Part shown: positions 179 through 24,394 of the stretch, piece by piece
Layout: every line of letters starts with the position of its first letter
Numbering within the stretch: the stretch's first letter is position 1
DNA from: Actinomycetota bacterium
GTDB lineage: Bacteria; Actinomycetota; Acidimicrobiia; Acidimicrobiales; Acidimicrobilacustridaceae
DNA: 64,000 nt
Assembly: GCA_016185305.1 (NCBI GenBank)
Contig: JACPNV010000007.1
Span: 1 to 64,000 of the forward strand
Reading direction: 5' to 3'
The notes under the pieces: generated by a model
Told to the model about the DNA's origin: nothing
Databases searched by the model: none
Seen by the model: only the letters and a program-made list of their open reading frames with translations
Translations under genes and position numbers: made by a program

Positions 179-613
179 CTAGCAGCCGTTCTTGTCCTTC
201 CACTCCTGCATGCGGGAGTACGCCCGTTGATCGAGGGTGCGGTCGGCGTCGGTGGGCTGCCCGAGCAGCAGCTTGTCGGCGAACGCGAGCCGATCCTCGA
301 CGGGCTGCACGAGATCGGGTGCCGCCAGCTTGAACGCGTCCGCGTGGTTGCGCATGGTTCGCAGCACTTCGTCCTTCTTCTCCGGCGTGGCCCCGGTCGA
401 CTGCGACGCGATGTAGAGGTCGAGGTCGACCTGGGCGAAGCCGGCGCACCTCGGGCTCTTCTCCGGGGCGGCGCCCGCGGTACCCGGTGACGGAGTCGGG
501 GTGGTCTGGGTCGCGGCCCCACCCGAACAAGCCGCGAGCAAGGTGGCGACGGCAAGCGCCAGGGCGGCGCCCCGCGCTGGTTTGCAGGCACCCACACGTC
601 GCGCTGCAGCCAT
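179..613 (-). CDS. Small two-cysteine lipoprotein A (unnamed family)
   Basis: The 144-residue product has a basic N-terminus, a hydrophobic stretch and a lipobox LLAAC with the lipidated Cys at about residue 29, so it should be anchored on the outer face of the membrane. A Thr/Pro/Ser-rich linker follows, then a helical domain that begins at SPRCAGF and ends in EWKDKNGC. Five other genes in this window have the same plan (2296, 4930, 7646, 14610 and 17330). It is divergent from a secreted sulfatase whose start is 68 bp away, so the two probably share a control region. The start is supported by a leaderless-type promoter 6 bp upstream. No catalytic motif is visible; an accessory or substrate-binding role at the surface is inference. 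Confidence 0.8.
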   Translation of the reverse strand: MAAARRVGACKPARGAALALAVATLLAACSGGAATQTTPTPSPGTAGAAPEKSPRCAGFAQVDLDLYIASQSTGATPEKKDEVLRTMRNHADAFKLAAPDLVQPVEDRLAFADKLLLGQPTDADRTLDQRAYSRMQEWKDKNGC

Positions 614-625
614 GGCGGCATGGTA
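614..625 (-). promoter_or_regulatory. Leaderless-type -10 element for lipoprotein A
   Basis: On the minus strand the hexamer TACCAT (bases 620-625) is followed by six bases and then the ATG. This spacing puts the transcription start on or next to the start codon. The same arrangement occurs at six other starts in this window. Confidence 0.5.
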
Positions 626-680
626 GTGCGCCGCGAGCGTGACGCTCCGGTGTCTCCACCGGGTGCTAGGACTTCACCCC

Positions 681-2189
681 ATGACTCGTGGGCGGCTCAT
701 CGTGATCCTCGCGATCGCGGTCGTGGTCGTCGCGGCGACGAGCACGGTGCTCGTCCTGCGGGCGGCGCCATCGAGCGCCCCGAACCTGCTGGTGATCATG
801 GCCGACGATCAGACGTTGGAGTCGCTACGGGTCATGCAGAACGTCAACGACCTCCTCGTGAAGGGAGGGACGTCGTTCTCGAACTACTACGTCGCCACAC
901 CGAACTGCTGCCCGAGCCGGGGCGAGTTCTACACCGGGCGCTACGCGCACAACACGGGCATCCGCGACAACGTGCCCCCACTCGGCGGCGCCAAGTCCTT
1001 CGTCGCCGTCCAGAACCAGACGCTTCCGGTGTGGCTGCAACAGTCCGGCTACTACACGGCCCACATCGGCAAGTTCCTGAACGGGTGGGGCAACCCCGGC
1101 AAGCCCGACTACTGGACCGGCGGCATCGCACCGCCACCGGGGTGGGACCGCTGGTTCGGGCTCATCGATCCGAGCACGTACGCCTACTACAACTACCGAG
1201 TATCGGTCGACGGCACCGAGCGGGCGTACGGCAACGCACCGACCGACTACCAGACCGACGTGCTCGGCCAGGAGGTGATCGACACGATCACGCGGGCCGG
1301 AGCGACCGGCAAGCCATGGTTCGTATCGTGGATGCCGCTCGCCCCCCACATCGGCGGGAAGGAGACCGCCTCCAAGGAGGGGCAGATCCCCGACAGCTTC
1401 ACCGCGGTTCCGGCGCCGCGCGACGCCGGCCGGTTCGCGAGCGAGAAGTTGCCCGCGTCGCCGAGCATCTCGCTCGGCCCGGAGGTGGAGACCTCGGCCG
1501 ACGTGCAGGGCAAGCCCGCCTTCGTGCAGGAACGAGTCAAGAAGGACCGCGGGTTCCGGGGTCTGCTCCCCGACGCGTACCGGGCCGAGCTCGAGACGCT
1601 GCAGGCACTCGACGAGTGGGTTCGCCGGATCTACGACGCCGTGGCGTCGATGGGGCAGCTCGACAACACCGTGATCGTGTTCGCGTCGGACAACGGCCTG
1701 TTCCACGGCGAGCACGGGCTCTACCAGAAGGGGTTGCTGTACGAGGAGGCGGTCCGCGTGCCGCTGGTCGTGCGGGGGCCAGGCTTCCCGGCGGGCGCCA
1801 AGGTGGACCAGCTCGTGAACAACGTCGACCTTGCGCCCACGCTGCTGGGCATCGCCGGCGCGCGCGCCGATGTCGAGCTCGACGGTCGCGACATGAGACC
1901 GTTCGTCGGCGACCCCGAGCTCAGCAAGAACCGCGCCGTCCTGCTCGAGAACTGGTACACGTTGACGCCGCTGTCCACCCAGGGCGTGCGCGTTGGCAAC
2001 TGGTCCTACCTCGAGTGGTCGTCCGGCGAGCGCGAGCTGTATGACCTCGCAGCCGACCCGTTCGAGATGACGAACCTCGCATCTGACCCCCGCTATCGAT
2101 CGGTGATCGCCGACCTTCGGCCCCGGCTCGAACGCCTTCGGACGTGCCGGGGAGCGACGTGCGAGGACTCCGACCTCTCCCGCCGGTGA
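681..2189 (+). CDS. Secreted or membrane-anchored sulfatase (formylglycine type)
   Basis: This 502-residue sulfatase should hydrolyse sulfate esters, probably on an extracellular glycan. The N-terminus (RLIVILAIAVVVVAATSTVLVL) is a signal anchor. The metal-binding block LLVIMADDQT follows, then CCPSRGEFYTGRYAHNTG. In that block Cys76 of C-x-P-S-R is the residue that would be converted to formylglycine, which needs a maturation enzyme not encoded here. Downstream, FASDNGLFHGEHGLYQKG and VPLVVRGPG complete the family signature. Start chosen at ATG 681, directly before the signal anchor. It is divergent from lipoprotein A and is followed 106 bp later by lipoprotein B. The substrate cannot be read from the sequence. 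Confidence 0.9.
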   Translation: MTRGRLIVILAIAVVVVAATSTVLVLRAAPSSAPNLLVIMADDQTLESLRVMQNVNDLLVKGGTSFSNYYVATPNCCPSRGEFYTGRYAHNTGIRDNVPPLGGAKSFVAVQNQTLPVWLQQSGYYTAHIGKFLNGWGNPGKPDYWTGGIAPPPGWDRWFGLIDPSTYAYYNYRVSVDGTERAYGNAPTDYQTDVLGQEVIDTITRAGATGKPWFVSWMPLAPHIGGKETASKEGQIPDSFTAVPAPRDAGRFASEKLPASPSISLGPEVETSADVQGKPAFVQERVKKDRGFRGLLPDAYRAELETLQALDEWVRRIYDAVASMGQLDNTVIVFASDNGLFHGEHGLYQKGLLYEEAVRVPLVVRGPGFPAGAKVDQLVNNVDLAPTLLGIAGARADVELDGRDMRPFVGDPELSKNRAVLLENWYTLTPLSTQGVRVGNWSYLEWSSGERELYDLAADPFEMTNLASDPRYRSVIADLRPRLERLRTCRGATCEDSDLSRR

Positions 2190-2295
2190 CCTCGCGACCG
2201 GGAGCTCCCCTGCGGTAGGGTGACCACTCGCGGCCTGCGCCTGGGTGCCGTCGTTCGTCCGTTCGCCACCTACGAACCTGGGGGAAATCGCAACG

Positions 2296-2724
2296 ATGCG
2301 TCGTGCCTTCGCTCTGACACTCACGCTGGTGGTCGCCGTGACCGCGTGCAGCAACGCCGGCAAGTCGGCCGGCTCGACGCTGCCGCCACCTCCGACGGCG
2401 CCTGGCGGCCAGGGGGCGGCGGGCGGAGCAGCTCCGCCAGGCAAGGCCACGCCGGAATGCCAGGCGAGCGACGGATGGGGCGTGGTCCTGTTCAACGCGG
2501 GTCCGAACGTCGCGAGCGACAAGAAGGCAGAGCTCTCCGCTGCTCTCGATGCCAAAGCCACCGCCTTCAAGGCGTTGGTGCCCGCCCAGGCCGCCAACAT
2601 CGACGCTCGGACGACCTACGCGAAGGCGTTGATCGCGGGGGCCGCCACCGACGCCGAGAAGTCGGCGAGCGAGCAGGCCACCGAGCCACTCAACGTGTGG
2701 TACGCCTCCGCCTGCAAGACGTGA
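2296..2724 (+). CDS. Small two-cysteine lipoprotein B (unnamed family)
   Basis: The product is 142 residues long. The start is ATG 2296 because the hydrophobic signal (FALTLTLVVAVTAC) begins at once, with the lipobox Cys at residue 18. After a Gly/Ala/Pro-rich linker, the domain starts at TPECQAS, contains KALVPAQAANIDAR in the middle and ends in VWYASACKT. This is the plan shared with the five sister lipoproteins; PAQA-x-x-ID is nearly the same in lipoprotein C. A TANNNT-type box (TAGGGT) lies about 75 bp upstream. The acyltransferase gene begins 12 bp after its stop, so the two are almost certainly co-transcribed. No enzymatic motif was found. Confidence 0.8.
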   Translation: MRRAFALTLTLVVAVTACSNAGKSAGSTLPPPPTAPGGQGAAGGAAPPGKATPECQASDGWGVVLFNAGPNVASDKKAELSAALDAKATAFKALVPAQAANIDARTTYAKALIAGAATDAEKSASEQATEPLNVWYASACKT

Positions 2725-2736
2725 GCCGCGGGCCGC

Positions 2737-4815
2737 ATGAGCGTCGACAGCCGTCTCCCGCAGACTGACGGGATCAGCGAGACCGGCGAGCGGGCAACCG
2801 CGGCTGACGGCGGCGCGCCAACGCGGGCGGAGCGCAAGCTGCCGTATGTCGCGGGGTTCGACGGGCTTCGTGGCATCGGCATCGTGCTCATGCTCTTGTA
2901 CCACGCCGAGGTCGTGTGGCTCGGCAACGGCGCGCTGTTCACCATCGAGATGTTCTTCGTGCTGAGCGGGTTCCTCATCACGTACCTGTTCATCATCGAG
3001 CGTCACAACCATGGCCGGATCGATCTCAAGCAGTTCTGGTCACGACGGGGCAGGCGGCTGCTCCCGGCCATCTTCGGCATCGTGGCGCTGGCCGCGGTGT
3101 GGGCGATGTTCCAACCGAAGGTCGGCCCGACGCCGATCGAGGTGAACCGGATGAACGGCGACGGCGTAGCCGCGCTGCTCTACGGGTCGAACTGGTGGCA
3201 GCTCTTCTCGGGCCAGTCGTACTTCGAGAAGTTCACGTCGCCCTCGCCGTTCAAGCACACCTGGTCGCTGTCGGTCGAAGAGCAGTTCTACCTCCTCATC
3301 GCGATCGTCGCGTTCTTCGGGTTTCGGCGCTGGGGCCACACCGGGAGGAAGTGGTTGGTGTTCGCGTTCGGGGGCGCGCTGGTCGCGGCGATCTGGATGG
3401 CGTTCCTCGCGCGCATGGGCGACATCTCGGCCGCAGGTCTCAACCCCTTCGGGATCGACCCGACCTCGCTGCCGAGCTGGATGCAGACGTTCTTCAACGT
3501 CCGGGGCGACGGCGATCCGTCGCGGCCTTACCTCGGCACCGACACCCGCATCGGTGCGTCGCTGATGGGCGTCGGTGCGGCGTTCCTCGTCGACCGCGCC
3601 GATCTTGGCAAGCTGAAGAAGTCGACAGCCGAGATCATGCTGGTCGTCGGGGTCGGCGGCTTGCTCCTGTTGTTCTTCGGCATCCCGTCGCGAACCACGC
3701 CGTGGATCTTCTACGGCGTGTTCTTGATCTGCGACATCCTCACGCTCTTGGCGATCGTGGGTCTGATGGCACCGCACCGCACGCTGACGGCGCGGCTGCT
3801 GTCGTGGAGGCCGCTGGTGTTCCTCGGACTGCTCAGCTACAGCCTCTACGTCTGGCACTTCCCGATCTTCGTGATCCTCGACGAGAGCCGGGTGCCCTTT
3901 CGCGGCTGGCTCCTCGATGTCGTCCGCATCGGCGTCGCGTTCGTGGTCGCGTACCTCTCGTTCCGGTACTTCGAGCAGCCGATCCGGCGGCAGGGGCTGA
4001 AGACCCGCCGAGTGCGCATCGGGGCGGCCGTTGCGGTCGCGGCGGTGGTCATCACGTTCCTCGTCGCCTCCCGCCCGTATCCCGATTCGAGCCTCATGGC
4101 AGCCGAGGCGAACGGCAGCTTCCCGCTCGTCTTGCTGGCCGGCGACTCCATGGCGTTCAGCCTCGCGATCGGTGTGCGCACCAAGGAGGCTGACTACCCC
4201 AAAGGGGTGGAGGCGCGCTCGGCCGGGTTGCTCGGTTGTGGCATCGGCGATGCCGACCTGGTGAAGGCGGGCTACCCCGTGCGCCTCAACCCGGCCTGCC
4301 GCGACATGGTGCGCGAGTTCACGCTCGCCATGGGGTACCGGCCTGCCATCACCGCGATGCTCGCCTGGGGGTGGGACCTCTACGACCGGCGGGTGCCCGG
4401 GCCTGACGGCGAGCTCGTCGACCTCCGGGTGGGCACGCCCGAGTGGGCGACCTGGTACACCGCGCAGGTGCAGCGGGGTGTCGACGCGCTCTCCGCAGGC
4501 GGCACCCGCGTCGCCTTGCTGACCATGCCCTGCATCGACATGGCGGCCGATCTCCCGCGCCGCCCTGACCCGGTTGTGGCCGAGCCGCATCGGGTGCAGG
4601 CGGTGAACTCGGTGCTCACGGCGATGGCGCGGCGCGATCCGGGGCGGGTCGTGTTGGTCGACCTCGGGGGGTTCCTGTGTCCCGACGGCCGCACCTATCG
4701 GGCCCGCATCGACGGGGTCGCCGTGTCCGACGACGGGCTTCACTTCACGCCGGAAGGAGCGGTGATCGTGTGGAACTGGCTCGAGCCACAGCTCGCCCAG
4801 GCGCGAGCCAGATGA
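2737..4815 (+). CDS. OafA-type membrane acyltransferase with C-terminal SGNH domain (copy 1)
   Basis: The protein has 692 residues. The first 430 or so are the acyltransferase-3 domain with about ten membrane segments. FDGLRGIGIVLMLLYHAEVVW holds the conserved R and His, and EMFFVLSGFLITYL and SLSVEEQFYLL are also family blocks. The last 250 residues form an extracytoplasmic SGNH hydrolase-like domain with LLAGDSMAFSL (block I) and DDGLHFTPEG (Asp-x-x-His). Such fusions move acyl groups, commonly acetyl, from a cytoplasmic donor to surface sugars. It forms a transcription unit with lipoprotein B. It is closely similar to the protein at 15079-17166, for example TMPCID and DGVxxSxDGxHF. Confidence 0.93.
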   Translation: MSVDSRLPQTDGISETGERATAADGGAPTRAERKLPYVAGFDGLRGIGIVLMLLYHAEVVWLGNGALFTIEMFFVLSGFLITYLFIIERHNHGRIDLKQFWSRRGRRLLPAIFGIVALAAVWAMFQPKVGPTPIEVNRMNGDGVAALLYGSNWWQLFSGQSYFEKFTSPSPFKHTWSLSVEEQFYLLIAIVAFFGFRRWGHTGRKWLVFAFGGALVAAIWMAFLARMGDISAAGLNPFGIDPTSLPSWMQTFFNVRGDGDPSRPYLGTDTRIGASLMGVGAAFLVDRADLGKLKKSTAEIMLVVGVGGLLLLFFGIPSRTTPWIFYGVFLICDILTLLAIVGLMAPHRTLTARLLSWRPLVFLGLLSYSLYVWHFPIFVILDESRVPFRGWLLDVVRIGVAFVVAYLSFRYFEQPIRRQGLKTRRVRIGAAVAVAAVVITFLVASRPYPDSSLMAAEANGSFPLVLLAGDSMAFSLAIGVRTKEADYPKGVEARSAGLLGCGIGDADLVKAGYPVRLNPACRDMVREFTLAMGYRPAITAMLAWGWDLYDRRVPGPDGELVDLRVGTPEWATWYTAQVQRGVDALSAGGTRVALLTMPCIDMAADLPRRPDPVVAEPHRVQAVNSVLTAMARRDPGRVVLVDLGGFLCPDGRTYRARIDGVAVSDDGLHFTPEGAVIVWNWLEPQLAQARAR

Positions 4816-4929
4816 GCCGACCGCTCCAGCGATCGCGGCGCCCCGACCGGCGGGGACCGGGCGCCGACTGGAATCGGGGGCCCACCTTCACTACATTGCC
4901 GCTCGATTGACGCCTGGGGAGGACGCGGT

Positions 4930-5361
4930 TTGCGCCGGATGAGTGGACTTGCAGCGCTGGTGTTCGTCGTGCTCGTCGCCGGGTGCGGGTCAAAGCCGAC
5001 CACAGGGGTCGACTCGGCCAGCAGCGCACGCCCTGCCGCGCCCTCTACGACCGCGAAGGCGGCCCGCAAGGTGAAGGCGACCGAGGAGTGCACGACCTTC
5101 GTCAAGTTCGGCTCGACCCAGCTCGCGGTCTCCGCCGCGAAGGACAAGGCGACCAAGCAGGCGAAGTACCAAGACGTCGTCGACACCGGCAACGCGCTCA
5201 AGCGGTTGGTTCCGGCCCAGGCGACCTCGATCGACACCATCGTGAAGAACGTGCAGCTCGTGTCGGTCAACGGCCAGAAGCTCGCTGCCGCCGACCAGAA
5301 GGTGCATGACGCCGCGGGCGCGTCGCTCCGCAAGTGGTACAACGACAACTGCTATTCCTGA
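4930..5361 (+). CDS. Small two-cysteine lipoprotein C (unnamed family)
   Basis: The 143-residue product starts at TTG 4930, six bases after a strong GGGGAGGA ribosome site; the in-frame ATG at 4939 is too far from that site. The signal ends in the lipobox LVAGC with Cys19. After a Ser/Ala/Thr linker come TEECTTF, LVPAQATSID and finally KWYNDNCYS, which match the family plan. A TACATT box lies about 35 bp upstream of the start, so the gene probably has its own promoter. It follows acyltransferase copy 1 and precedes the YLDPGTGS protein. Its function is unknown. Confidence 0.8.
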   Translation: MRRMSGLAALVFVVLVAGCGSKPTTGVDSASSARPAAPSTTAKAARKVKATEECTTFVKFGSTQLAVSAAKDKATKQAKYQDVVDTGNALKRLVPAQATSIDTIVKNVQLVSVNGQKLAAADQKVHDAAGASLRKWYNDNCYS

Positions 5362-5486
5362 TCCTGCGGGCCGCCCTCGACCGCGATGCGCTCGACCCCG
5401 ATGCTCACGGATGGTCACTGCTAAGCTGCCACGATCCCAAGACCGCGTACCGGCGGTGGAGCAACGGGTAGAGAAGGGGAGCGCGA

Positions 5487-5681
5487 ATGCTTGGTTATCT
5501 TGATCCCGGAACCGGAAGCATGATCGTCGGCGCGGTGGCCGCGGGCGCGGCCGGCGTCGGCGTCGCGGTGCGCACCGGGCTCTCCAAGTTCAGGCGATCG
5601 CCGAAGCAGTCGTCCGCAGTCGAGGCGTCGGGGACGGGTCAGGACCAAGACGGCGCGGGTGGCAACAACGCCGAGGCCTGA
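5487..5681 (+). CDS. Small membrane protein with YLDPGTGS motif
   Basis: This 64-residue protein starts MLGYLDPGTGSMIVGAVAAG. It has one hydrophobic helix (about residues 10-28), then a basic stretch (KFRRSPK) and an acidic, Gly-rich tail. The start is supported by GGGGAG seven bases upstream, and TAAGCT about 70 bp upstream may be the -10 box. I recall LDPGTGS as the hallmark of very small membrane proteins that recur next to alkaline phosphatase/sulfatase-fold enzymes and methyltransferases in polysaccharide loci; that memory cannot be checked here. The neighbouring methyltransferase (convergent, 3 bp apart) and sulfatases fit. No function is known to me. Confidence 0.7.
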   Translation: MLGYLDPGTGSMIVGAVAAGAAGVGVAVRTGLSKFRRSPKQSSAVEASGTGQDQDGAGGNNAEA

Positions 5682-5684
5682 TCC

Positions 5685-7085
5685 TCACCGCGGCAACAGA
5701 TCGAACAGCACCCGCGTCCCGCCGTCCAGCTCGAGGCGACGCTCGACATTGAAGCGCTCGGCCACCTGCTCCTCGAAGGTCGCGAGCGCATAGCCGTCGT
5801 GCACACCGGCCCGCTTGTTGCGCAGGAGCCGCTTCACCATCGGATCATCCTCGGTGGGGAACTCCACGATCGCCTCGGCCCCGAGGCTCACGAGCACGTC
5901 CAAGAACTCAGCCGTCGGAACGTTGCTGGTGATGGCGAGGTGGTGGACCACGGCGAGGCACAGCACCAGGTCGGGGCGGTTGCGGTCGAGGAAGCCCCGG
6001 CGCTCCTGTCCACGCCACCCGAGACCGGCCGGCGGATCGGCCAGGTTGACGACGAGCGGGACGACGTTGGTGGTCTTGGCCTCCCGCAGCCGGCGATAGA
6101 GGACATCGACGACCAGGTGGTCGTTGTCGAAGGCAAGGACGTGGGCAGCGTGAGCCGCGACGAGCTCGGAGAAGTGGCCGTCGTTGCAGCCGACGTCCCA
6201 CACGAGCGAGCAGCGTGACCGGGACGCGACCTCCACGACGAACGCTTCTTTGGCGCGCAGCTCGCGATCGCTGTAGTGCGAACGATCGCTGTAAGACGAC
6301 CAGGTCGACTCGGATCGCTTCCACTCAAGGCCGCCGACCAGCTTCTGCAGTCCCTTGACGTTTGCCTCGATGAGGCGGCTGTTGAAGCCGCTCTGCTTCA
6401 TCGTCGTCTTGATGTCTGCTTTGGCGTCGGCGAGCCTTCGTTGTGCCATCGCGTGCAGGGCGACATGGACAGCCACGCCCTTCCGGGCCAGCCGGGTCGG
6501 GCCGAGCACGCGGCGGGCCTCTTCGGGGGTGATGCCGTCGATGCTGGCCCGCAGCCACGGCTGGAACGGCAGGTCGGCGTAGGCCTGGAACAGGAGCGGG
6601 TACAGGAACATCTGGCAGAACTGGAGGTAGCCGTACCACGGATCGCCAGGGGTGAGACGCTCGAACGAACCCACGTCGACGAACGTCGCAGACGTGCCTT
6701 CGAACTGGACGTTGTACGGCGTGGCGTCTTTGCAGATGAAGCCGTCTGCCAGTGCGGCGGCGAGCACGTCGAGCTGCAGGATCGCCGCGTCTCTCAGCAT
6801 GCTGAACGACCACTCGTACGGATAGGTCCACAGCGGCAGCCGGGGATGCTCGGCGACCGCGGCCCACGGTCCGGTGATGCCGAATGCCGCTGGTGCCTCG
6901 TCCAGCAGGGTCGTGGGAACGATCGTGCCGGCCCGCGTGGCCTGTGTGAAGAAGGGAGCCTCGGCGGCGGCGGTGAGATCGAGCGCGGCTTGCTCGTCGA
7001 GCGCTCGAAGCACGCGGTCATCGCTGAGGAACACGCGGCTCGACGGGTCGCGGAACGAGCCCGGGTCAGGTCGCGGGGTCGGCAT
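5685..7085 (-). CDS. Class I SAM-dependent methyltransferase with N-terminal extension
   Basis: The 466-residue protein carries a Rossmann methyltransferase core in its second half. CSLVWDVGCNDGHFSEL is the SAM-binding motif I, LAFDNDHLVVD the acidic end of strand beta-2, and RPDLVLCLAVVHHLA motif IV. The first 240 or so residues (with GFICKDATPYNVQFEG and TFVDVGSFERL) look like a kinase-like fold fragment and recur in sugar-locus methyltransferases; the acceptor is unknown. AAGGGGAACC precedes the ATG. It is the last gene of a unit with the sulfatase-fold enzyme and lipoprotein D, 24 bp after the latter. A role in capping or decorating a surface glycan is inference. Confidence 0.75.
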   Translation of the reverse strand: MPTPRPDPGSFRDPSSRVFLSDDRVLRALDEQAALDLTAAAEAPFFTQATRAGTIVPTTLLDEAPAAFGITGPWAAVAEHPRLPLWTYPYEWSFSMLRDAAILQLDVLAAALADGFICKDATPYNVQFEGTSATFVDVGSFERLTPGDPWYGYLQFCQMFLYPLLFQAYADLPFQPWLRASIDGITPEEARRVLGPTRLARKGVAVHVALHAMAQRRLADAKADIKTTMKQSGFNSRLIEANVKGLQKLVGGLEWKRSESTWSSYSDRSHYSDRELRAKEAFVVEVASRSRCSLVWDVGCNDGHFSELVAAHAAHVLAFDNDHLVVDVLYRRLREAKTTNVVPLVVNLADPPAGLGWRGQERRGFLDRNRPDLVLCLAVVHHLAITSNVPTAEFLDVLVSLGAEAIVEFPTEDDPMVKRLLRNKRAGVHDGYALATFEEQVAERFNVERRLELDGGTRVLFDLLPR

Positions 7086-7109
7086 GGTTCCCCTTGGTGG
7101 CTACGACGC

Positions 7110-7646
7110 TCACTGGCAGTTCCGGTCGTCCCACAACTGGAGGTCGCTGGTGAGGCGACGATAGAGCACGAGGTCGGCCCCGGCCAGCGGGGCCGAGACG
7201 CCCTTCTTCACGAGGGCGAGATGTTGGTCGACGGCGTTCGTGAGGATCGGGTTCGCCGCCTTGAGCTTGGCGGCGGCGCGCTCGGCCGCGGGGACGATGG
7301 ATTGCTTGTCGCCCTTGCTCGACATTGCGATGCCTGAGACGGCGACGGTGTATGCCTGCGCCGCCGCACATGCCGCGCTGCCGCGAGCCGCGGTGCCCGG
7401 CGGTGCGCTCGCCGGGGTCGACCCCCCGGGAATCGAACCCGCCGGCTTCTTCGTCGCCGACGGCGCGCGCGGTGCGGCGAGCGCCGGCCCCGAGGTCGTG
7501 GCGGCGCTCTCGCTGGAACCGCGGCCCGCTGCGCACCCCGAAACGGCGAACGCCAGGACGGCCAGCATCGCCGCCACCGAGACCCGGCGCACGTGCGGGA
7601 CGGCGTTGTGGTCGGTGGCCAGGGGGTGATCGGTGGCGGCGGGCAT
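7110..7646 (-). CDS. Small two-cysteine lipoprotein D (unnamed family)
   Basis: This is the most divergent of the six sister lipoproteins, at 178 residues. It has a longer N-region before the hydrophobic stretch (AAMLAVLAFAVSGC, lipobox Cys38) and a long Ser/Ala/Pro linker, then SAACAAAQAYTVAVSG and finally LQLWDDRNCQ. The two late Cys and the W-x(4)-C end match the others. It lies between the sulfatase-fold membrane enzyme (27 bp upstream) and the methyltransferase (24 bp downstream), all on the minus strand, so a three-gene operon is likely. No clear ribosome site precedes ATG 7646, and a GTG at codon 19 is a possible alternative start. Confidence 0.75.
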   Translation of the reverse strand: MPAATDHPLATDHNAVPHVRRVSVAAMLAVLAFAVSGCAAGRGSSESAATTSGPALAAPRAPSATKKPAGSIPGGSTPASAPPGTAARGSAACAAAQAYTVAVSGIAMSSKGDKQSIVPAAERAAAKLKAANPILTNAVDQHLALVKKGVSAPLAGADLVLYRRLTSDLQLWDDRNCQ

Positions 7647-7673
7647 GGGCGGTTTTTGTCTACCTGGCGCTCA

Positions 7674-9791: not shown

Positions 9792-9855
9792 CCTACCGTA
9801 GGGCGCGCGCCGGTCGAGTCGGGGTCAGGCAGACCGAGCGCGCCAGTCGCTGCAC

Positions 9856-9867
9856 TACCGTGACGCG
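9856..9867 (+). promoter_or_regulatory. Leaderless-type -10 element for the GT-C gene
   Basis: TACCGT at 9856-9861 is followed by six bases and ATG 9868, and no ribosome site precedes the ATG. The spacing predicts transcription starting at the start codon. Confidence 0.5.
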
Positions 9868-11412: not shown

Positions 11413-12155
11413 CGGCGGCCGCGCCCGAGCGTCGTGACGGGGCGCCGGTGCGGCGTCGCCGCGTCATCGTCGCGCTTGTCGCATTCGTCGCGCTGGTGGC
11501 GATCTCGGTCCTTGCCGGCACGGGCGTGCTCGTGGGCCTGCGGTCAAGCCCCGAGGCTCACGCCGGCGACCTCGGCGCCGCCCGCGTCAGCGTGATCGGC
11601 GACAGCTTGACGAAGGCATCGGTCGCGGCGATCCGCGACGAGCTGGATGCCGGGGGATTCGTGCCCACCGTCGTGGACGGCATCAACGGTGAGGAGATCA
11701 TCAAGCGGCGCGACCAACTGGTGCAGGCCAGCCAGCCCGGAGGAGCAGACGTCGCCGTGATCGCGCTCGGCACGAACAACGTGTTCTTCGCTTCGGTCGA
11801 CGACCTGCGGCGCAAACCGATGGAAGCCAGCATCCGCGACCTCGATCAGGTGATCACCGACGTGCAGGAGGGTGTCGGCGGCGTCCGGCCCGCCACCCGG
11901 TGCCTCGTGTGGGTGAACGTGAACGACCGCACCGACACTGATGGTCTCCGGACGTGGGCGCCGGTCTTCAACCAGGCCGTCGCCGATCGGGCCCGCCGGG
12001 AGAACGTGGCGGGGCGGCCGATGCGTGTCGCGGACTGGGCGTCGTTCTCCCGCGCGCAGCCGTCGTACTTCGTCGAGGACGGCATCCACCTGACCACCGA
12101 CGGCCAGCGCGCCTACGCGAGGCTCATCCGCGAGACGATCGACACCTGCCGCTGA
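11409..12155 (+). CDS. Membrane-anchored SGNH/GDSL hydrolase
   Basis: The 248-residue protein has one N-terminal membrane helix (RVIVALVAFVALVAISVLAGTGVLV) and an outer SGNH domain. RVSVIGDSLTKAS is block I with the catalytic Ser, IALGTNNVFF carries the block III Asn, and VEDGIHLTTDG holds the Asp-x-x-His pair. It resembles the SGNH halves of the four acyltransferases nearby but stands alone. Its ATG overlaps the TGA of the glycosyltransferase gene. It probably removes or transfers acyl groups on a surface glycan made or modified by its partner. It is convergent with acyltransferase copy 2, with only 9 bp between stops. Confidence 0.85.
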   Translation: MTAAAPERRDGAPVRRRRVIVALVAFVALVAISVLAGTGVLVGLRSSPEAHAGDLGAARVSVIGDSLTKASVAAIRDELDAGGFVPTVVDGINGEEIIKRRDQLVQASQPGGADVAVIALGTNNVFFASVDDLRRKPMEASIRDLDQVITDVQEGVGGVRPATRCLVWVNVNDRTDTDGLRTWAPVFNQAVADRARRENVAGRPMRVADWASFSRAQPSYFVEDGIHLTTDGQRAYARLIRETIDTCR

Positions 12156-12164
12156 CGGTCGGGG

Positions 12165-14345
12165 TCAGCCTCCGGGTTTCTGGTTGGCCCACACGTCCCA
12201 GTACGACCAGAGCAGCTCCGGGCCGAGCCAGGCCGCGACGATGTCGCCGCCACCGCCACTGGCGGCGGTTGGGTGGATCCCGTCGACCCGCAGCGCCGTG
12301 TCGTAGATGCCGCCGGGCCAGTTGCGGAAGAACGAGTCGTACGGAACGACCCGGAACAAGGGGTACTTCTTGCCGGCGGCAGCCACGATCTGGTTGAGGC
12401 GGTTGATCCGGGCGGGGTCGCTGGCGGCGAACGGCTGGCCCTGGTAGCTCAGCCCGATGCCCCACTGCGCGGGCGGCTGTTGGAGCCACAGGATCGGCAC
12501 GCCGGCGGTGGCGAGCAGATCGAACAGCGCCGTGTACTCGCTCTTCAACCTGGCGTCGTACGCGGGATCGCCGGGGGCCCGCAGGGTCGAGTCGCCGTCG
12601 AGCGTGTGCTCGGTCGTGTCCCACAGGCTCTGCGAGACGACGATGAGGTCAGGCTGGACCTTCTCGAGCTGCTGGCGCCACCGCGGCTCCCAGTCGCAGT
12701 TGTCCGGGTTGTCGACCAGCACGACCTCTTTGAGCTGGTAGAGCTGGAGCTTCTGCCCGCCCCGGACGATGCCGCACCCGCGCACGCCACCGTTCACGGT
12801 CGCGAAGACCTGGTTCTTGACGCCCCACTTGCTGAGCACGTCGGCGAGCGAGACGGCCGTCGAGTCGCCGACGAGGAGCATTCGCAGCGGGCGATCCGGT
12901 CGCTGGCTCGTCTTGGGTGTCGGGGGCTTCGCGGCTCTGGTGCCCGGTGCCGGCGCAGGGAACGACGGGAGCGTCGTCGGTGGCGGAACGAACGGTCCGC
13001 TGGACGAGACGCGGCTGAGGTTCAAGTCGATGGTGAGCTGATCGTCGGCCTTGGCGATCTCCGGCGCCCTGGTGCCGAGGACCGATGCCAGCACCACCAG
13101 CGCGACGCCGGCGACGATCGCCGCCTGCCAGTTGCGGATGCCGAAGGGTCGCTCGCCCCGGCGGATCGGCATCTCCAGCAGGTAGTAGGACGCGATGGAC
13201 GCCGCGAGCGTGACGGCCATCCGCACCGCGAAGAGCGAGAGGCCGGGGAGCGGGAGCCGCTCGGGGCTCAGCCACAAGAAGATGATCCAGTGGTACACGT
13301 AGACGCCGTAGGAGATCTTGCCGAGGCTGCGAAGCACCCAGATGCCGAGGATCTTGCCCACCAGCGAGCCGGGCACGACGCAGCCCAGCACGAGCAGGGC
13401 GGAGACGATGGCGTACAGGGCGAGGCCGCTGTTGAACACGAACGGGCTCTCGCGCGGCAGGGTCAGCCACAAGAACATGGTCACGGCGAACGCCGCCAAC
13501 CCGACGCCAGAGAGCGCCCGGCGTTGCTGCTCGTTCCAGCCGGGCTCGGCGAGCGACCGGTTCGACAGCAGCACGGCGAGGAGGACACCGGCGAGCAGCT
13601 CGGCGCCGCGCGCGTCGGTGCCGAAGTAGAAGCGGTCCGGCGACATGGTGACGAGGTGCGGGAGCGCCGCAGAGAGCAGGAAGAGGCCGGCCACGAAGAA
13701 GCCGAACGTCTTCACCCGCATCTTGAAGACGCGGAGGCAGACGAAGATCACGAGCGGGTACACCAGGTAGAACTGCTCCTCGATGGCGAGGCTCCAGAAG
13801 TGCAGCAGCGGCGACGGCGAGTTGAACAGCTCTGCGTACGCCTGGCCCGACGAGACGAAGTTCCAGTTGGCGACGTAGAACTGGGCGCTCAGCAGGTCGC
13901 CGCGAAGGTTGGCGAGCTGCGTGTCGTTGGCGGCCCACCACCCGAAGGCGACCGCGAGGAACAGCCCGGCGTACGCGGCGGGCATGAGACGGCGGAAGCG
14001 ATGCACGAAGAAGCGCTTGATGTCGACGCTGCCGGTCTGTCGCTGCTCGCGGAGGATCAGGGTGGTGATGAGGAACCCGCTCAGGGTGAAGAACATCGAC
14101 ACCGCGAGGTATGCGCCCGGCACCGTGCGCACGTAGCCGCCGTGGTAGGTGACGACGAAGATCAGGCCGAGGCCGCGCAGGCCGTCGAGCCCCGCGAAGT
14201 ACGGGAGGCTCGCCTTCTTCGGCTTCACCGCGGCTGGTTCGAACAGCTTCGTGTCGGTGTCGCGGCGATCGTCCGCCACCGGCAGGTTCTTGCTCTGCTG
14301 TGGATCGGGTGGCGGAGTCTCGGCGACGGACTCCGTCGTCGTCAC
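12165..14345 (-). CDS. OafA-type membrane acyltransferase with C-terminal SGNH domain (copy 2)
   Basis: I place the start at GTG 14345 (726 residues) because GGAG lies upstream at a usable distance; an in-frame ORF continues to 14543 but its extra residues look non-coding. After a Pro/Thr-rich cytoplasmic tail come LDGLRGLGLIFVVTYHGGYV, SMFFTLSGFLITTL and SLAIEEQFYLVYPL of the acyltransferase-3 domain. The outer SGNH domain has LLVGDSTAVSLADVL and VDGIHPTAASG. A Pro/Thr/Lys linker joins the two halves. This copy is the most distant of the four in the window. It is divergent from lipoprotein E, with 264 bp between the starts. Confidence 0.9.
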   Translation of the reverse strand: MTTTESVAETPPPDPQQSKNLPVADDRRDTDTKLFEPAAVKPKKASLPYFAGLDGLRGLGLIFVVTYHGGYVRTVPGAYLAVSMFFTLSGFLITTLILREQRQTGSVDIKRFFVHRFRRLMPAAYAGLFLAVAFGWWAANDTQLANLRGDLLSAQFYVANWNFVSSGQAYAELFNSPSPLLHFWSLAIEEQFYLVYPLVIFVCLRVFKMRVKTFGFFVAGLFLLSAALPHLVTMSPDRFYFGTDARGAELLAGVLLAVLLSNRSLAEPGWNEQQRRALSGVGLAAFAVTMFLWLTLPRESPFVFNSGLALYAIVSALLVLGCVVPGSLVGKILGIWVLRSLGKISYGVYVYHWIIFLWLSPERLPLPGLSLFAVRMAVTLAASIASYYLLEMPIRRGERPFGIRNWQAAIVAGVALVVLASVLGTRAPEIAKADDQLTIDLNLSRVSSSGPFVPPPTTLPSFPAPAPGTRAAKPPTPKTSQRPDRPLRMLLVGDSTAVSLADVLSKWGVKNQVFATVNGGVRGCGIVRGGQKLQLYQLKEVVLVDNPDNCDWEPRWRQQLEKVQPDLIVVSQSLWDTTEHTLDGDSTLRAPGDPAYDARLKSEYTALFDLLATAGVPILWLQQPPAQWGIGLSYQGQPFAASDPARINRLNQIVAAAGKKYPLFRVVPYDSFFRNWPGGIYDTALRVDGIHPTAASGGGGDIVAAWLGPELLWSYWDVWANQKPGG

Positions 14346-14609
14346 CGGGGTTGCTCCGATGCTGGGCTCGACGAGCAACGGTGGGGCCGGCGCCGCACCA
14401 CGCGTCGTCCACCTCTGGTCGTGGCGGCAGCCCCCAAGTGATCTCTCCCTGACGTCCGCGGCCCACCTGAGGAGCGTGGCGTGATCACCGCCAGATCCGG
14501 GGCTGCTGGCTCGCCACCTTAGTCGTTCACCCGCGGCAGCCAAGCTCCCCGCTGGTGTGAGGCTACGTTGGTGCGCCGGTGCATCTGACCAGGGAGGACG
14601 ACGACACCC

Positions 14610-15044
14610 ATGACTGCCCGCCCCACCGGCGCGCTGATGTTGTCCGGCGTGCTCGTCCTCGCGGCCTGTGGGAGCTCCCCAGCCACCGGGGCGGCCGCGA
14701 CGGTCGGCGACAAGAGCCCGTTGAACAACGCCAAGGCGCCGACGACCACCGCAAGGCCCCGGAAGACCACGCCCGAGTGCAACGGCGTCTACACGATGCA
14801 GTCGCTCAGGCTCGCCCTGCGCCGCCCTTCGCCCGATGCGGCCAACCAGGGCAAGCTGCTCGGCGAGTACCGAACGCAGGCCGAGACGGTGAAGAAGCTG
14901 GCGCCGGACATCGCCGGCCAGATCGACCAGCGAGTCGCGCTCACGACGAAGGCCACCTTCGGTACGCTCACCGCGCCCGAGTCACAGACCTCGGATCAGG
15001 TGGACAAGGCCATCAACGCGTGGTGGGAAGCCCGCTGCCTTTGA
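14610..15044 (+). CDS. Small two-cysteine lipoprotein E (unnamed family)
   Basis: The 144-residue product has a lipobox VLAAC with Cys20, a Lys/Thr/Pro linker and then TPECNGVYTM, KKLAPDIAGQIDQR and AWWEARCL. TPECN is identical in lipoprotein F. AGGGAGG lies about ten bases before the ATG and a TACGTT box about 40 bp upstream. It sits between two minus-strand acyltransferase genes, divergent from copy 2 and convergent with copy 3. Function unknown. Confidence 0.8.
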   Translation: MTARPTGALMLSGVLVLAACGSSPATGAAATVGDKSPLNNAKAPTTTARPRKTTPECNGVYTMQSLRLALRRPSPDAANQGKLLGEYRTQAETVKKLAPDIAGQIDQRVALTTKATFGTLTAPESQTSDQVDKAINAWWEARCL

Positions 15045-15078
15045 GCCGTGCGGCGTGCGTCGGGCATAGAGAGCTGCG

Positions 15079-17166
15079 TCAAGGCTTGGCGCCGGTGAGC
15101 TTCTGCAGCGTCGGCGCCATCCAGTTCCACACGACGACCGCGCCTTCCTTGGAGAAGTGGATGCCGTCGTTGCTCATCGAGACGCCGTCGATCGTGGCGC
15201 GGTAGCGGACCCCGTCCGGGCAGAGCAGCCGGTTCAGGTCGACGAGTGACACCCCGTTCGAGGACCGTTCGCGGGCGACCTCGGCGAGCACCTTGTTCAC
15301 CTCGGTCACCCGCCTCGGCGCGTCGGGCTCGGTGGTCGGGCGCTTCGGCGTCTCCGCCTCGAAGTCGATGCACGGCATCGTCGCGAGCACGACCTTCCCG
15401 CCCTGCGCCCTGAGCACGTCGATGGCTTTGGTCAGCGATGCCTTGAACAGATCTCGCCAGGCGGCCGAGCCGACCGTGATCTCTTCGTAGCCACCCTGGC
15501 CGTCGGGGACGCGGCGGTCATAGATGTCCCAGCTCCAGGCGAGCACCACGCTGGCACGGGGGTTCACGCGCGAGACGGCGTCGGCCCACTTCGCCGGCCA
15601 CTGGTCGCAGCCCGTTCCCTGCTTCTGGGGACTCCCGCCGATGACGTAGTCCGCGTCGATGATGCCGCAGCCGAGCTGCGTGGCGAGCCGGACGGCCATG
15701 CCGGTCGTGGCATCGGCGCTCTTGGCGAACACGCCCCCGCCGAAGGAGTACGCCTGGGAGTCGCCGGCCACGAGGACGACGGGTCGCCCGCCGGTGGCGG
15801 TGCTGTTCACGTCGGCGCCGGCCTCGCTGCCCGTCCCTCCCGCTCCTGCTTCGGGGGGCGCGCCGGTGAACAGCAGCAGGCTGGCGATGATGGCCAGGAC
15901 GGCGCCTCCAGCGATCATCCGGGACCGTTTGGTCGGTAGGCCTCGCACACGCAGGGGTTGCTCGTAGAAGCGGTACGAGACATAGGCGATCGCGAACACC
16001 GCCCCGAGGCGGGCCACCGCGAGCATCCAACCGTCGACCGGCATCCGGTCGTCGTTCATGATCAGGAAGAGCGGGAAGTGCCAGACGTACAGGCTGTAGG
16101 ACAAGACGCCGACGACCGCGATCGGGGCCCACGCCATGACGTCGCCGGCAACCGTGCGCCGGCCCGACATCAGGCACACGATCGCGGTGGCGGTGAGCAG
16201 ATCGACGAGCAAGAACCCGCCGTAGAAGAGCCAGTGCGCGCCCCGTGGCGTCAAGACCAGCAGGGCCGCGAGCGCGGCGAGCGAGGCCAGCCCGGCGAGC
16301 TCGAGCACGAGATAGGGGACCTTCTTCAGGTCGACCCGCTGCAAGATGAACGCCAGCGCGACGCCGATCAGGACGGCTTGCAGCCGGGAGTCGGTGCCGT
16401 AGTAGACGCGGGAAGGATCGCCATCCCCTTTGAGGTTGAAGAACGTCTGGGCCCAGCCCGGCAGCGAGTCGGGGTTGATGCCGAAGGGCCAGAGCCCCTC
16501 GGCGACGAGGTCGCCCATGCGGGTGAGGAACATCATCCACCCGGCCGCGAGCGCCGCCGCGACCACCGACAGCACGATCCACCGGCGGCGGTGGACCGCC
16601 CAGATGCCAAAGCCGAGGGCGAGCCCCATCGCCACGACGACGTAGAACTGCTCCTCTATGGACAGCGACCACGTGTGCTGGAGCGGCGAGGGGCTGCCGA
16701 AGCGCGCGAAGTAGCTCTGGCCGTTGATGAGGTACCACCAGTTCGAGGTGTAGGTCATCGTGGCGATGCCGTCGCTGCGTATGGTGCCGCGCTCGACGGC
16801 GGACGGGCCGAAGGGCTCGGGCAGCATCGTCCAGACCACGACGAGGCCGACGACGGCGACCAGGGCAGGCGCGAGACGTCGCACCCGTCGCGTCCAGAAT
16901 CCCTTGAGGCTGATGCGGTCGGTGTTCTTGCGCTCGATGATCAGCAGGGTCGTGATCAGGAAGCCGCTGATCACGAAGAACACCTCCACCCCGATGGGCC
17001 CGCCGTCGCCCATCCAGCTCACATCGAGGTGGTAGAAGAGCACCGCGAGGATGGCGAGACCCCGCAGCCCGTCGAGGCCACGGACGTAGGGAAGCCGGCG
17101 GTGCTCGCCGATCTGCTCGGTCTGCTCGAAGCCGCGCAGATCGGTGATCGTCGGGGGCGCCGTCAT
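15079..17166 (-). CDS. OafA-type membrane acyltransferase with C-terminal SGNH domain (copy 3)
   Basis: The product has 695 residues from ATG 17166 (a TTG lies directly before it). The acyltransferase-3 half has LDGLRGLAILAVLFYHLDVSWMGD, EVFFVISGFLITTL and SLSIEEQFYVVVAM. The SGNH half has LVAGDSQAYSFGGG and NDGIHFSKEG. It is the closest relative of copy 1 here: both share a GDGDPSR-x-Y-x-GTD loop, TMPCID and a near-identical last block ending in VVWNWM/L, which suggests duplication within the island. A TACACT box lies about 45 bp upstream. It is divergent from lipoprotein F and converges on lipoprotein E. Confidence 0.92.
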   Translation of the reverse strand: MTAPPTITDLRGFEQTEQIGEHRRLPYVRGLDGLRGLAILAVLFYHLDVSWMGDGGPIGVEVFFVISGFLITTLLIIERKNTDRISLKGFWTRRVRRLAPALVAVVGLVVVWTMLPEPFGPSAVERGTIRSDGIATMTYTSNWWYLINGQSYFARFGSPSPLQHTWSLSIEEQFYVVVAMGLALGFGIWAVHRRRWIVLSVVAAALAAGWMMFLTRMGDLVAEGLWPFGINPDSLPGWAQTFFNLKGDGDPSRVYYGTDSRLQAVLIGVALAFILQRVDLKKVPYLVLELAGLASLAALAALLVLTPRGAHWLFYGGFLLVDLLTATAIVCLMSGRRTVAGDVMAWAPIAVVGVLSYSLYVWHFPLFLIMNDDRMPVDGWMLAVARLGAVFAIAYVSYRFYEQPLRVRGLPTKRSRMIAGGAVLAIIASLLLFTGAPPEAGAGGTGSEAGADVNSTATGGRPVVLVAGDSQAYSFGGGVFAKSADATTGMAVRLATQLGCGIIDADYVIGGSPQKQGTGCDQWPAKWADAVSRVNPRASVVLAWSWDIYDRRVPDGQGGYEEITVGSAAWRDLFKASLTKAIDVLRAQGGKVVLATMPCIDFEAETPKRPTTEPDAPRRVTEVNKVLAEVARERSSNGVSLVDLNRLLCPDGVRYRATIDGVSMSNDGIHFSKEGAVVVWNWMAPTLQKLTGAKP

Positions 17167-17329
17167 CAAGAGTCGCTTCGCCGGAGAAGGAGAACCGCCC
17201 GAGTGTAGTGACGCCGGATCAGGCGGGGCCGCGCGTGGCCGTGCGTGGCCCGAGCAAGGTCGGCGGCGCGCCGGTCGGGCGACCTGCGTTGGCTACAGTT
17301 GCTGCTTCGGTTCTGGACCTGGAGGAGAC

Positions 17330-17752
17330 GTGGGCTTCCGCTTTCCGGCCGTCGGCGCCGTGCTGATGGTCTTGCTACTGGCGAGCTGTGCGAGCGGGAA
17401 GGCCAGCCGGCCTCCCGTCGTCGCGGCCACGACGCCGGGCGGGGCCGATCAGGGCGCGAACCCGCCGACCACCTACAAGGCCACACCGGAGTGCAACGCA
17501 GTCCGGGCATTCGTCCTGGCCGGCTACTACGCGACCCAAGCACCGCCGGAGAAGGTGAACGACTTCGTGGCGACCGCGCAGCGGGGTGCTGATGAAGCGA
17601 AGGTGAAGGTTCCCGCCCTCACCCCCGACATCGACACCACGATGACGCTGCTCACCAAGTCGTTGGCCGGCCAGGTGACCGACGCGGACAAGGCCACGAA
17701 CGACCAGGTCGCGGGCAACATCAACCGCTGGGTTCAGACGAACTGCGGCTGA
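17330..17752 (+). CDS. Small two-cysteine lipoprotein F (unnamed family)
   Basis: The start is GTG 17330, set by a GGAGGAG ribosome site two bases before it and by the signal sequence that follows (PAVGAVLMVLLLASC, lipobox Cys20); the product is 140 residues. The mature part has TPECNAVRAF, VPALTPDIDTT and RWVQTNCG, matching the family plan. A TACAGT box lies about 30 bp upstream. Acyltransferase copy 4 starts 5 bp after its stop, the tightest lipoprotein-acyltransferase coupling in the window. Confidence 0.8.
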   Translation: MGFRFPAVGAVLMVLLLASCASGKASRPPVVAATTPGGADQGANPPTTYKATPECNAVRAFVLAGYYATQAPPEKVNDFVATAQRGADEAKVKVPALTPDIDTTMTLLTKSLAGQVTDADKATNDQVAGNINRWVQTNCG

Positions 17753-17757
17753 CGCCG

Positions 17758-19812
17758 GTGGCCGGAGACCTCGCCGTCAGCACGTCGGTCACCGAAGGTC
17801 CGGATCTGGGTCGCGTCGCGGTCGAGCAGCCGGCGATCGCGTCCCGGCGGTGGCGGCTCACCCACCGCCCCGCGCTGGACGGGCTGCGCGGCCTGGCGGT
17901 CCTCGGCGTGATGGCGTTCCACGCCCAGCGGCTGACCGGTGGCTATCTCGGCGTCGACCTGTTCTTCGTCCTGTCCGGCTTCTTGATCACCTCGCTCCTG
18001 CTGGGTGAGCGGGCCCGTTCGGGTTCGATCGCGCTGGGCGCGTTCTGGGCACGGCGGGCGCGCCGCCTCCTGCCCGCCTTGTTGCTCGTGCTCGCGGTGG
18101 TCGCGGTCGCGGTGAGCTTCCTGTCGCCTGCCGCTGACGCCAACGCCTTCCGGGGCGACGGGTTGGCGACGCTGTTCTACGTGGCGAACTGGAAGGCGAT
18201 CTTCGCCAGCAACAACTACTGGGCGCTGTTCGACGCGCCTTCGCCCTTGCAGCACGCCTGGAGCCTGGCGATCGAAGAGCAGTTCTACGTGCTGTGGCCC
18301 CTCGTCGTGGCGGCCGTCTTGGTGTGGTGGAGACGATCTGCTCGGGCGATCCTCGCCGTCGCGCTGGGCGGGGCGGCTATCTCGGTGGCGGCGATGGTCG
18401 TGGCTTCCCGCGACGGCGACACGACGCGCGCCTACTTCGGGACCGACACGCGCATGGCGGCGATCCTGCTCGGCGCCGGCCTGGCTGCGGCCTTCCACCT
18501 GTGGGGCCACGTGCGGACCGCACGCTCGAGGCTCGTGCTGGAGATCGTGGCTGTGGTTGGCGTGGGTTGGTTGGCCTACGCCTGGGTCGCCGTCGGCGGC
18601 CAGGACCTGTTCCTCTACCGCGGCGGCTTCGTGCTGAGCGAGCTGGCGGCGCTGGCGATCATCGCGGCGGCCACCCACGAGCGGCGGGGTCCCGTGGGCG
18701 CCGCGCTGTCGTGGCGACCGCTCTGCTGGGTGGGCCTGGTCAGCTACGGTCTGTACCTCTGGCACTGGCCGATCTTCGTCTTCGCGGACGAGGCTCGCGT
18801 GCCCCTGGCCGGTCTGGCCCTGCTGGGGTTCAAGGTCGCGCTGACCTTCGCGGTGGCGACCGCGAGCTTCTACCTCGTCGAGCGTCCGATCCGCCGCGGG
18901 GCCATGACCACGCGGACCGCGGCCGTGGCGGCGCCGGTCGCCTTCGCTGTGACGCTCCTGCTCGTGCTGGCCGCTCCGGCGCGGCCCCAAGCGTCGACCG
19001 TGAGCTCTGACGACGTTGCCGCTCGGCTCTCGGCGGTGGCCTCGGGCTCAGCCGCGCCGTCCGGTGGCCCCCAGTCCGGCCCCCAGTCCGACGGTTCTGC
19101 GGCTGTCGCCGCCTCCGGCCGGGTCGGGGCGCGGCAGGCCCTCGGGCGCGATCCGCGGGTCCTCGTGCTCGGCGACTCGGTCGCGTTCACGATCGCGGCC
19201 GGCGTCATCCCGTACCAGCAGCAGCTCGGCGTGCAGACCCAGAGCGGCGCGGTCATCGCGTGCGGCGTGGCGCGCGGAGACGGGCGCATCAAGACGCCGG
19301 ACGGGACGATCGCGACCGAGAGCGCAGCGTGCAACGACTGGGCGAACCGGTGGCCGGCGACGATCGCGTCGTTCCAGCCCGACGTCGTGCTGCTGACACT
19401 GGGCTGGCCCGGCCACACCAGCCGCTACGTGGAAGGCGAATGGCGCCAGCCCTGCGACCCGGTCTTCGATCGCTGGTATGAGGGCGAGGTTCGTGCGGCC
19501 ATCGACGTGCTGGCCCGCCAGCAGGTCCCGCTCGCGATGACGACCGCCGCGTACTACCGCTCACCCCGAGCCCCGGCCGGCACCGATGCCAAGACCGACT
19601 GCCTCAACTCGCTGTACCGCCGGGTCGCGGCCGATCAGGGCGTCCGCATCATCGACCTCGCGGGCTGGGTCTGCCCGGACGGCCAGTGCCGCGAGCAGCA
19701 AGACGGCGTCGTCCTGCGGCCCGATGGCCTGCACTTCGACGGTCCCGCCGGGGTGATCGCCGGCGCGTGGGTGCTCGACGAGTTGCTCACGCCGATGGCG
19801 GCGGGCCGCTGA
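17758..19812 (+). CDS. OafA-type membrane acyltransferase with C-terminal SGNH domain (copy 4)
   Basis: The 684-residue protein starts at GTG 17758, 5 bp after lipoprotein F, and is surely co-transcribed with it. LDGLRGLAVLGVMAFHAQRL, DLFFVLSGFLITSL and SLAIEEQFYVLWPL mark the acyltransferase-3 domain (about residues 35-410). A Ser/Ala/Gly-rich linker leads to the SGNH domain with VLVLGDSVAFTIAAGV and PDGLHFDGPAG. The reaction is presumably transfer of an acyl group onto an exported or surface glycan. Its GT4 neighbour is convergent, 21 bp away. Confidence 0.92.
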   Translation: MAGDLAVSTSVTEGPDLGRVAVEQPAIASRRWRLTHRPALDGLRGLAVLGVMAFHAQRLTGGYLGVDLFFVLSGFLITSLLLGERARSGSIALGAFWARRARRLLPALLLVLAVVAVAVSFLSPAADANAFRGDGLATLFYVANWKAIFASNNYWALFDAPSPLQHAWSLAIEEQFYVLWPLVVAAVLVWWRRSARAILAVALGGAAISVAAMVVASRDGDTTRAYFGTDTRMAAILLGAGLAAAFHLWGHVRTARSRLVLEIVAVVGVGWLAYAWVAVGGQDLFLYRGGFVLSELAALAIIAAATHERRGPVGAALSWRPLCWVGLVSYGLYLWHWPIFVFADEARVPLAGLALLGFKVALTFAVATASFYLVERPIRRGAMTTRTAAVAAPVAFAVTLLLVLAAPARPQASTVSSDDVAARLSAVASGSAAPSGGPQSGPQSDGSAAVAASGRVGARQALGRDPRVLVLGDSVAFTIAAGVIPYQQQLGVQTQSGAVIACGVARGDGRIKTPDGTIATESAACNDWANRWPATIASFQPDVVLLTLGWPGHTSRYVEGEWRQPCDPVFDRWYEGEVRAAIDVLARQQVPLAMTTAAYYRSPRAPAGTDAKTDCLNSLYRRVAADQGVRIIDLAGWVCPDGQCREQQDGVVLRPDGLHFDGPAGVIAGAWVLDELLTPMAAGR

Positions 19813-24393: not shown

Positions 24394-24394
24394 C

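Follow-up and report, generated by a model that had tools for sequence, protein, structure and literature searches.

The window, that is, the whole 64,000 nt stretch of DNA analysed here, carries a cluster in which six small lipoprotein genes lie among genes of acyltransferases and other enzymes. The lipoprotein genes are at 179-613 (minus strand; lipoprotein 1, 144 aa), 2296-2724 (plus; lipoprotein 2, 142 aa), 4930-5361 (plus; lipoprotein 3), 7110-7646 (minus; lipoprotein 4, 178 aa), 14610-15044 (plus; lipoprotein 5, 144 aa) and 17330-17752 (plus; lipoprotein 6, 140 aa). All six were found where the original prediction had placed them, from 179 to 17752, and the same six were called by a codon-usage gene caller. 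For lipoprotein 3 the start was read as a TTG at about 4930, an in-frame ATG at 4939 being another possibility. The window starts at base 1 of the contig, hence the neighbours of the lipoprotein 1 gene are visible on one side only. A lipobox cysteine and a terminal W-x(4,5)-C, both named in the original prediction, were read in each of the six proteins (lipoboxes LAAC, VTAC, VAGC, VSGC, LAAC and LASC for lipoproteins 1 to 6, respectively), and a Ser/Thr/Pro/Ala linker is present in every one.

Enzymes encoded in the cluster

Four AT3-SGNH acyltransferases are encoded at 2737-4815 (plus), 12165-14345 (minus), 15079-17166 (minus) and 17758-19812 (plus). Of these, the enzymes at 12165 and 15079 were tested against PF01757 and PF19040 and matched both, while the enzymes at 2737 and 17758 were assigned by motif alignment and NCBIfam. 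In the alignment all four keep the TM1 His, the Tyr of EEQFY and the GDS and DGxH motifs of the SGNH domain, and they share their motifs with acyltransferases of the OafA/OafB/OatA type (PF01757 plus PF19040). The best NCBIfam relative of the enzymes at 2737 (E 4e-29) and 17758 (E 1e-35) is the mycobacterial succinyltransferase SucT (NF058601); their scores of 102 and 123 bits are far below the curated cut-off of 1275, so that an identity with SucT itself was rejected. Elsewhere in the window's own genome (G000), contig C97 encodes a 943 aa AT3 protein with apparently two SGNH domains in tandem (L196:389-3220, minus).

Divergently from lipoprotein 1, the gene at 681-2189 (plus) encodes a type I sulfatase with an N-terminal membrane anchor (PF00884, 6e-43), in which the CxPxR motif of formylglycine sulfatases is found as CCPSR at residue 76. 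The gene at 7674-9791 (minus) encodes a membrane-anchored enzyme of the alkaline-phosphatase superfamily (AP-superfamily) that lacks CxPxR; the alignment shows Ser at the nucleophile position (Thr in relatives), and we infer a phosphotransferase-like role for it. Sulfatases with CxPxR remove sulfate. The original prediction spoke of acylation/sulfation modules and, as one of the two enzymes is a CxPxR sulfatase and the other is without the motif, the part about sulfation has to be given up and the phrase should read acylation and AP-superfamily tailoring.

The other genes of the cluster encode a methyltransferase, with its domain in the C-terminal half and an extra N-terminal half that looks kinase-like by eye (KDATPYNV...FVDVGSFE; 5685-7085, minus), a PMT_2/GT-C-like membrane glycosyltransferase (9868-11412, plus) and a stand-alone, membrane-anchored SGNH/GDSL hydrolase (11409-12155, plus). 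A small membrane protein is encoded at 5487-5597 (plus) and begins MLGYLDPGTGSMIVGAVAAGAAG; it has relatives in the clusters of genomes G002, G009 and G017, where it is conserved next to a methyltransferase or AP-superfamily gene. On contig C215 of G002 one continuous reading frame (L027:16315-19998, minus, plus L028:3-1106) covers both the PMT_2-like glycosyltransferase and the AP-superfamily enzyme, which are encoded by two genes in the window; this is a second gene fusion of the same cluster, beside those of the acyltransferases described below. Downstream of the cluster, at 20969-25366 (minus), there is a TgpA/transglutaminase, DUF58 and MoxR ATPase operon in its ordinary arrangement.

A family of two-cysteine lipoproteins

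Leave-one-out profiles, each built from five members, were run against 1041 ORFs from contig stretches and recovered the sixth lipoprotein at E values from 6.4e-16 to 1e-8 (3.9e-12, 8.3e-14, 3.3e-9, 1e-8, 5.7e-13 and 6.4e-16 for lipoproteins 1 to 6, respectively), the top unrelated ORF having an E value of 0.21. The two-Cys four-helix domain was assigned to lipoprotein 1 at E 6.3e-33. Identity between the paralogues is low (22-31% to lipoprotein 6). Judged by their sequences, the six are paralogues of one real family, alike beyond chance.

We searched the taxonomic family (37 genomes), the order (298 genomes) and the phylum (396 genomes). Strong members are confined to five genomes of four genera in one taxonomic family, with none beyond it in the order-wide and phylum-wide searches, and the stand-alone copies number 24: six in G000, four in its sister species of the same genus (G001), five in G002, eight in G008 and one in G009. 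The G000 assembly, 72% complete, holds exactly the six stand-alone copies of the window and one weak match, which turned out to be a fused copy on contig C93. No member was detectable anywhere in genome G005. Contig C67 of G008 carries family lipoproteins in tandem, three at L025:6747-8127 (plus) and two at 17047-18157 (plus), which suggests local duplication and divergence.

Across 27 aligned members the only invariant residues are two cysteines, 27 out of 27 in both cases, which bracket a 90-residue domain, in agreement with the conserved Cys pair of the original prediction; more than 90% of them also have a Pro between the second and the third helix. None of the 27 scored above a curated cut-off of Pfam or NCBIfam, the best E values being 0.006 in Pfam and 0.02 in NCBIfam, reached by a single member each. 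Two candidates, DUF3558 at E 0.29 and the invert_tail lipoprotein model at E 0.026, were set aside because they match the signal peptide and linker. That the proteins belong to no named family was also borne out, since Pfam, NCBIfam and the PDB gave no match: this is a previously unnamed, lineage-restricted lipoprotein family.

In genomes G047, G055, G218 and G283, which belong to other families of the order, weaker two-Cys helical lipoproteins were found (E 1e-6 to 7e-4). Like the family they are helical, with a C-terminal Cys and a Pro-Glu-Leu-like middle motif; unlike it they are mostly without a neighbouring acyltransferase. The G055 protein has one AT3 gene adjoining; the corresponding position in G283 has none. 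These proteins may be remote relatives or look-alikes, and their membership is uncertain.

Two divergent members were modelled with AlphaFold2. The models of lipoproteins 6 and 3, both built from only the same six window sequences, have a mean pLDDT of 96.6 and 96.3, respectively, and the same four-helix arrangement, so that the family domain is predicted to be a 90-residue four-helix bundle. The first cysteine is close in sequence to the beginning of helix 1 and the second to the end of helix 4, one at either end of the bundle, so that a disulfide pinning these ends is plausible. Foldseek gave no match below E 0.1 against the PDB and viral models, and a PDB sequence search returned nothing beyond unrelated helical proteins, among them de novo and apolipophorin-like ones, all above E 0.05. 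Since searches readily miss so simple a fold as a four-helix bundle, or match it by chance, the lack of a structural relative in these searches is weak evidence of novelty.

The low identity of the paralogues, the tandem duplicates in G008 and the narrow distribution would also suit fast-diverging surface proteins of conflict that guard phage receptors, act as decoys or inhibit lytic enzymes and are kept together with the enzymes that vary the surface glycan. We regard this as very unlikely, because no phage-related fold was matched among the viral models and because orthologues are retained across genera.

Gene neighbourhoods and fusions to AT3-SGNH enzymes

The predicted 5-12 bp spacing upstream of acyltransferases was confirmed, with gaps of 12 bp after lipoprotein 2 (2724/2737) and of 5 bp after lipoprotein 6 (17752/17758). 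A gap of 27 bp separates the lipoprotein 4 gene from the AP-superfamily enzyme gene upstream of it, and the lipoprotein 5 gene is flanked by two acyltransferase genes. As predicted, all six lipoprotein genes touch an AT3-SGNH gene or a gene of the AP-superfamily ("sulfatase-fold" in the prediction). In shuffles of the gene order, over a stretch of 15 genes with six such enzymes, the same six out of six was reached in 6.7% of cases; adjacency within the window cluster alone is thus weak evidence, and we rejected it as sufficient proof.

Within two genes, the distance that the original prediction had set for a count over actinomycete genomes, 14 of the 24 stand-alone copies have an AT3 or AP-superfamily neighbour (6/6 in G000, 1/4 in G001, 3/5 in G002, 4/8 in G008 and 0/1 in G009), and about 0.64 would be expected in a rough independence model, a comparison that overstates the significance, since the copies are clustered, several clusters are syntenic, and the copies are thus not independent; counted by cluster, the figure is five of ten. 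The expectation was obtained from genome-wide enzyme counts and gene numbers estimated from genome size, and the neighbours were counted by hand. Outside the window, in the four other genomes, eight of 18 stand-alone copies, again not independent of each other, are within two genes of such enzymes, with a base rate of about 2-4%.

In addition, the domain occurs fused to acyltransferases. The 847 aa protein on G000 contig C93 (L148:9688-12231, minus) consists of an AT3 domain (residues 98-436), an SGNH domain (503-720) and the family domain (737-846). A similar fused protein is encoded on contig C492 of G001, with an internal assembly gap and the N-terminus missing; a third copy at a protein end, on contig C222 of G001, has the same HIT/PhoH neighbours as C93, is cut by the contig end and is probably also a fusion. 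Profiles built without the two fused copies matched those of C93 and C492 at E 2.6e-9 and 3.3e-8, respectively. The fused domains form a single clade (95/98), and the fused enzymes fall in the clade of the window enzyme at 12165-14345 (100/99), a type of gene that has a lipoprotein gene divergently adjacent both in G000 and in G002. With one domain clade, and enzymes that group with the 12165 enzyme, the fusions probably go back to a single event in the window's genus. They are new evidence for a functional link, which the original prediction had not foreseen.

In the AT3 half of the C93 protein the TM1 His is replaced by Leu (His25 position) and EEQFY by AEQAN (Tyr194 position); His25 and Tyr194 of OafB are the proposed catalytic residues of AT3 (PMC9833829). 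One Arg of the RRxRR stretch is also lost, and GDS and DGxH of the SGNH domain are intact. The protein is possibly a pseudo-acyltransferase with a putatively active SGNH domain. As the AT3 residues are lost but the SGNH motifs are kept, the bundle was retained together with the SGNH half, and we infer that the SGNH side is its partner.

The fusions also bear on the possibility that the lipoproteins are substrates, their Ser/Thr-rich linkers being O-glycosylated by the PMT_2-like enzyme and the sugars then acylated by the AT3-SGNH enzymes to give decorated surface lipoproteins. The linkers in all six window proteins would fit, as would the presence of the glycosyltransferase in the cluster and of its relatives next to family members in G002, G008 and G009; however, what is conserved is the bundle and not the linker, and hardly any linker separates the bundle from the SGNH domain that precedes it in the G000 fusion. 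We consider this explanation unlikely.

The original interpretation is partly supported, among other things by the enrichment near AT3-SGNH and AP-superfamily genes and by the fusions, but a dedicated, strictly one-to-one partnership is too strong a claim and is not supported. Ten of the 24 stand-alone copies have no AT3 or AP-superfamily gene within two genes: on G002 contig C34 the neighbours are UDP-GlcNAc 2-epimerase, Wzz, glycosyltransferase and WecA-type genes, on G001 contig C180 there is a GDP-mannose dehydratase alongside, and the remaining copies are next to a methyltransferase (G009), trigger factor (G008 contig C322), other family copies (G008 contig C67) or nothing related (G002 contig C162). 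Neighbours also switch within supported orthologous groups, so that no constant ortholog-to-ortholog pairing of lipoprotein and enzyme was found. The lipoprotein 2 group (window 2296, G002, G008 and G009) is beside an acyltransferase and a sulfatase in G000, the same sulfatase type in G002, a lipoprotein tandem in G008 and a methyltransferase in G009. Conversely, orthologues of the 17758 enzyme in G005 (57% identical) and G008 (56%) have no family copy adjoining, nor do the AT3 genes on contigs C46, C90, C95 and C97 of G000. A scan with the acyltransferase alignment gave 80 AT3 loci of other organisms, all of them distant relatives (at best 40% identity), and no family member was near any of them. 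The AP-superfamily/methyltransferase/small-membrane-protein module of G017 holds no family member either.

Some of these observations are in line with the chief rival explanation, namely a general family of glycan-binding or structural envelope lipoproteins that resides in surface-polysaccharide loci and binds the modified glycan or its carrier, its closeness to acyltransferases being due to shared pathway clusters, with no subunit relation. The copies beside other glycan genes outside the main cluster (G002 contig C34 and G001 contig C180), the orthologues that change neighbours and the G017 module without a member all point this way. However, fusion in cis to an AT3-SGNH enzyme in two species would not be expected from clustering alone, and the copies on G008 contig C322 and G002 contig C162 are outside glycan loci. 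On balance this explanation is possible but rather doubtful.

A proposed accessory role in glycan acylation

The reading that we tentatively prefer, with a confidence that stops short of even, is that the family is a lipid-tethered accessory domain of SGNH-type envelope-glycan acylation, which also occurs in cis. Since its members lie beside sugar-acylating enzymes and, in the window's genus, are fused to them, the lipoproteins are probably helpers of these enzymes. Made up of a lipid anchor, a linker of Ser/Thr/Pro/Ala that is flexible, and the predicted 90-residue four-helix bundle, they would serve outside the cytoplasm as accessory subunits in the tailoring of envelope glycans, working mainly with AT3-SGNH acyltransferases. 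On the outer membrane face the bundle would dock to the SGNH domain or next to it, where it may help to bring or select an acceptor glycan. It would do so mostly in trans, as a separate lipoprotein, and in one branch in cis, at the C-terminus of the enzyme; several paralogues would match several acyltransferases on one or several glycans.

AlgF, in alginate acylation, and DltX/DltD, in that of teichoic acid, are accessory proteins of MBOAT-type acylation. They may be compared with the family as small envelope proteins that cooperate with an acyl donor in the membrane and a transferase outside the cytoplasm; the enzyme superfamily is different and the likeness is one of analogy only. With respect to the OafA/OafB/OatA type, the difference is that a two-Cys four-helix domain is added here at the C-terminus or as a separate lipoprotein, and the fused proteins are AT3-SGNH enzymes plus one further domain. 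The common fusions named for AT3 are those to SGNH and alanine racemase (PMC9558356), and the word lipoprotein is absent from that review.

The analysis thus defines a protein family that had no name and whose fold is predicted with confidence. Whether it represents an undescribed class of AT3-SGNH accessory subunit, a tethered bundle that in trans provides the choice of acceptor or positions the SGNH domain and is fused in one branch, including to an AT3 half without the proposed catalytic residues, is a proposal that we make with still more reserve. How AT3 acyltransferases pick among acceptor glycans is poorly known, and their need of partner proteins has been stated as open (PMC9558356, PMC9833829). 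A small domain found in separate and in fused form offers a direct handle on the question of AT3 partners.
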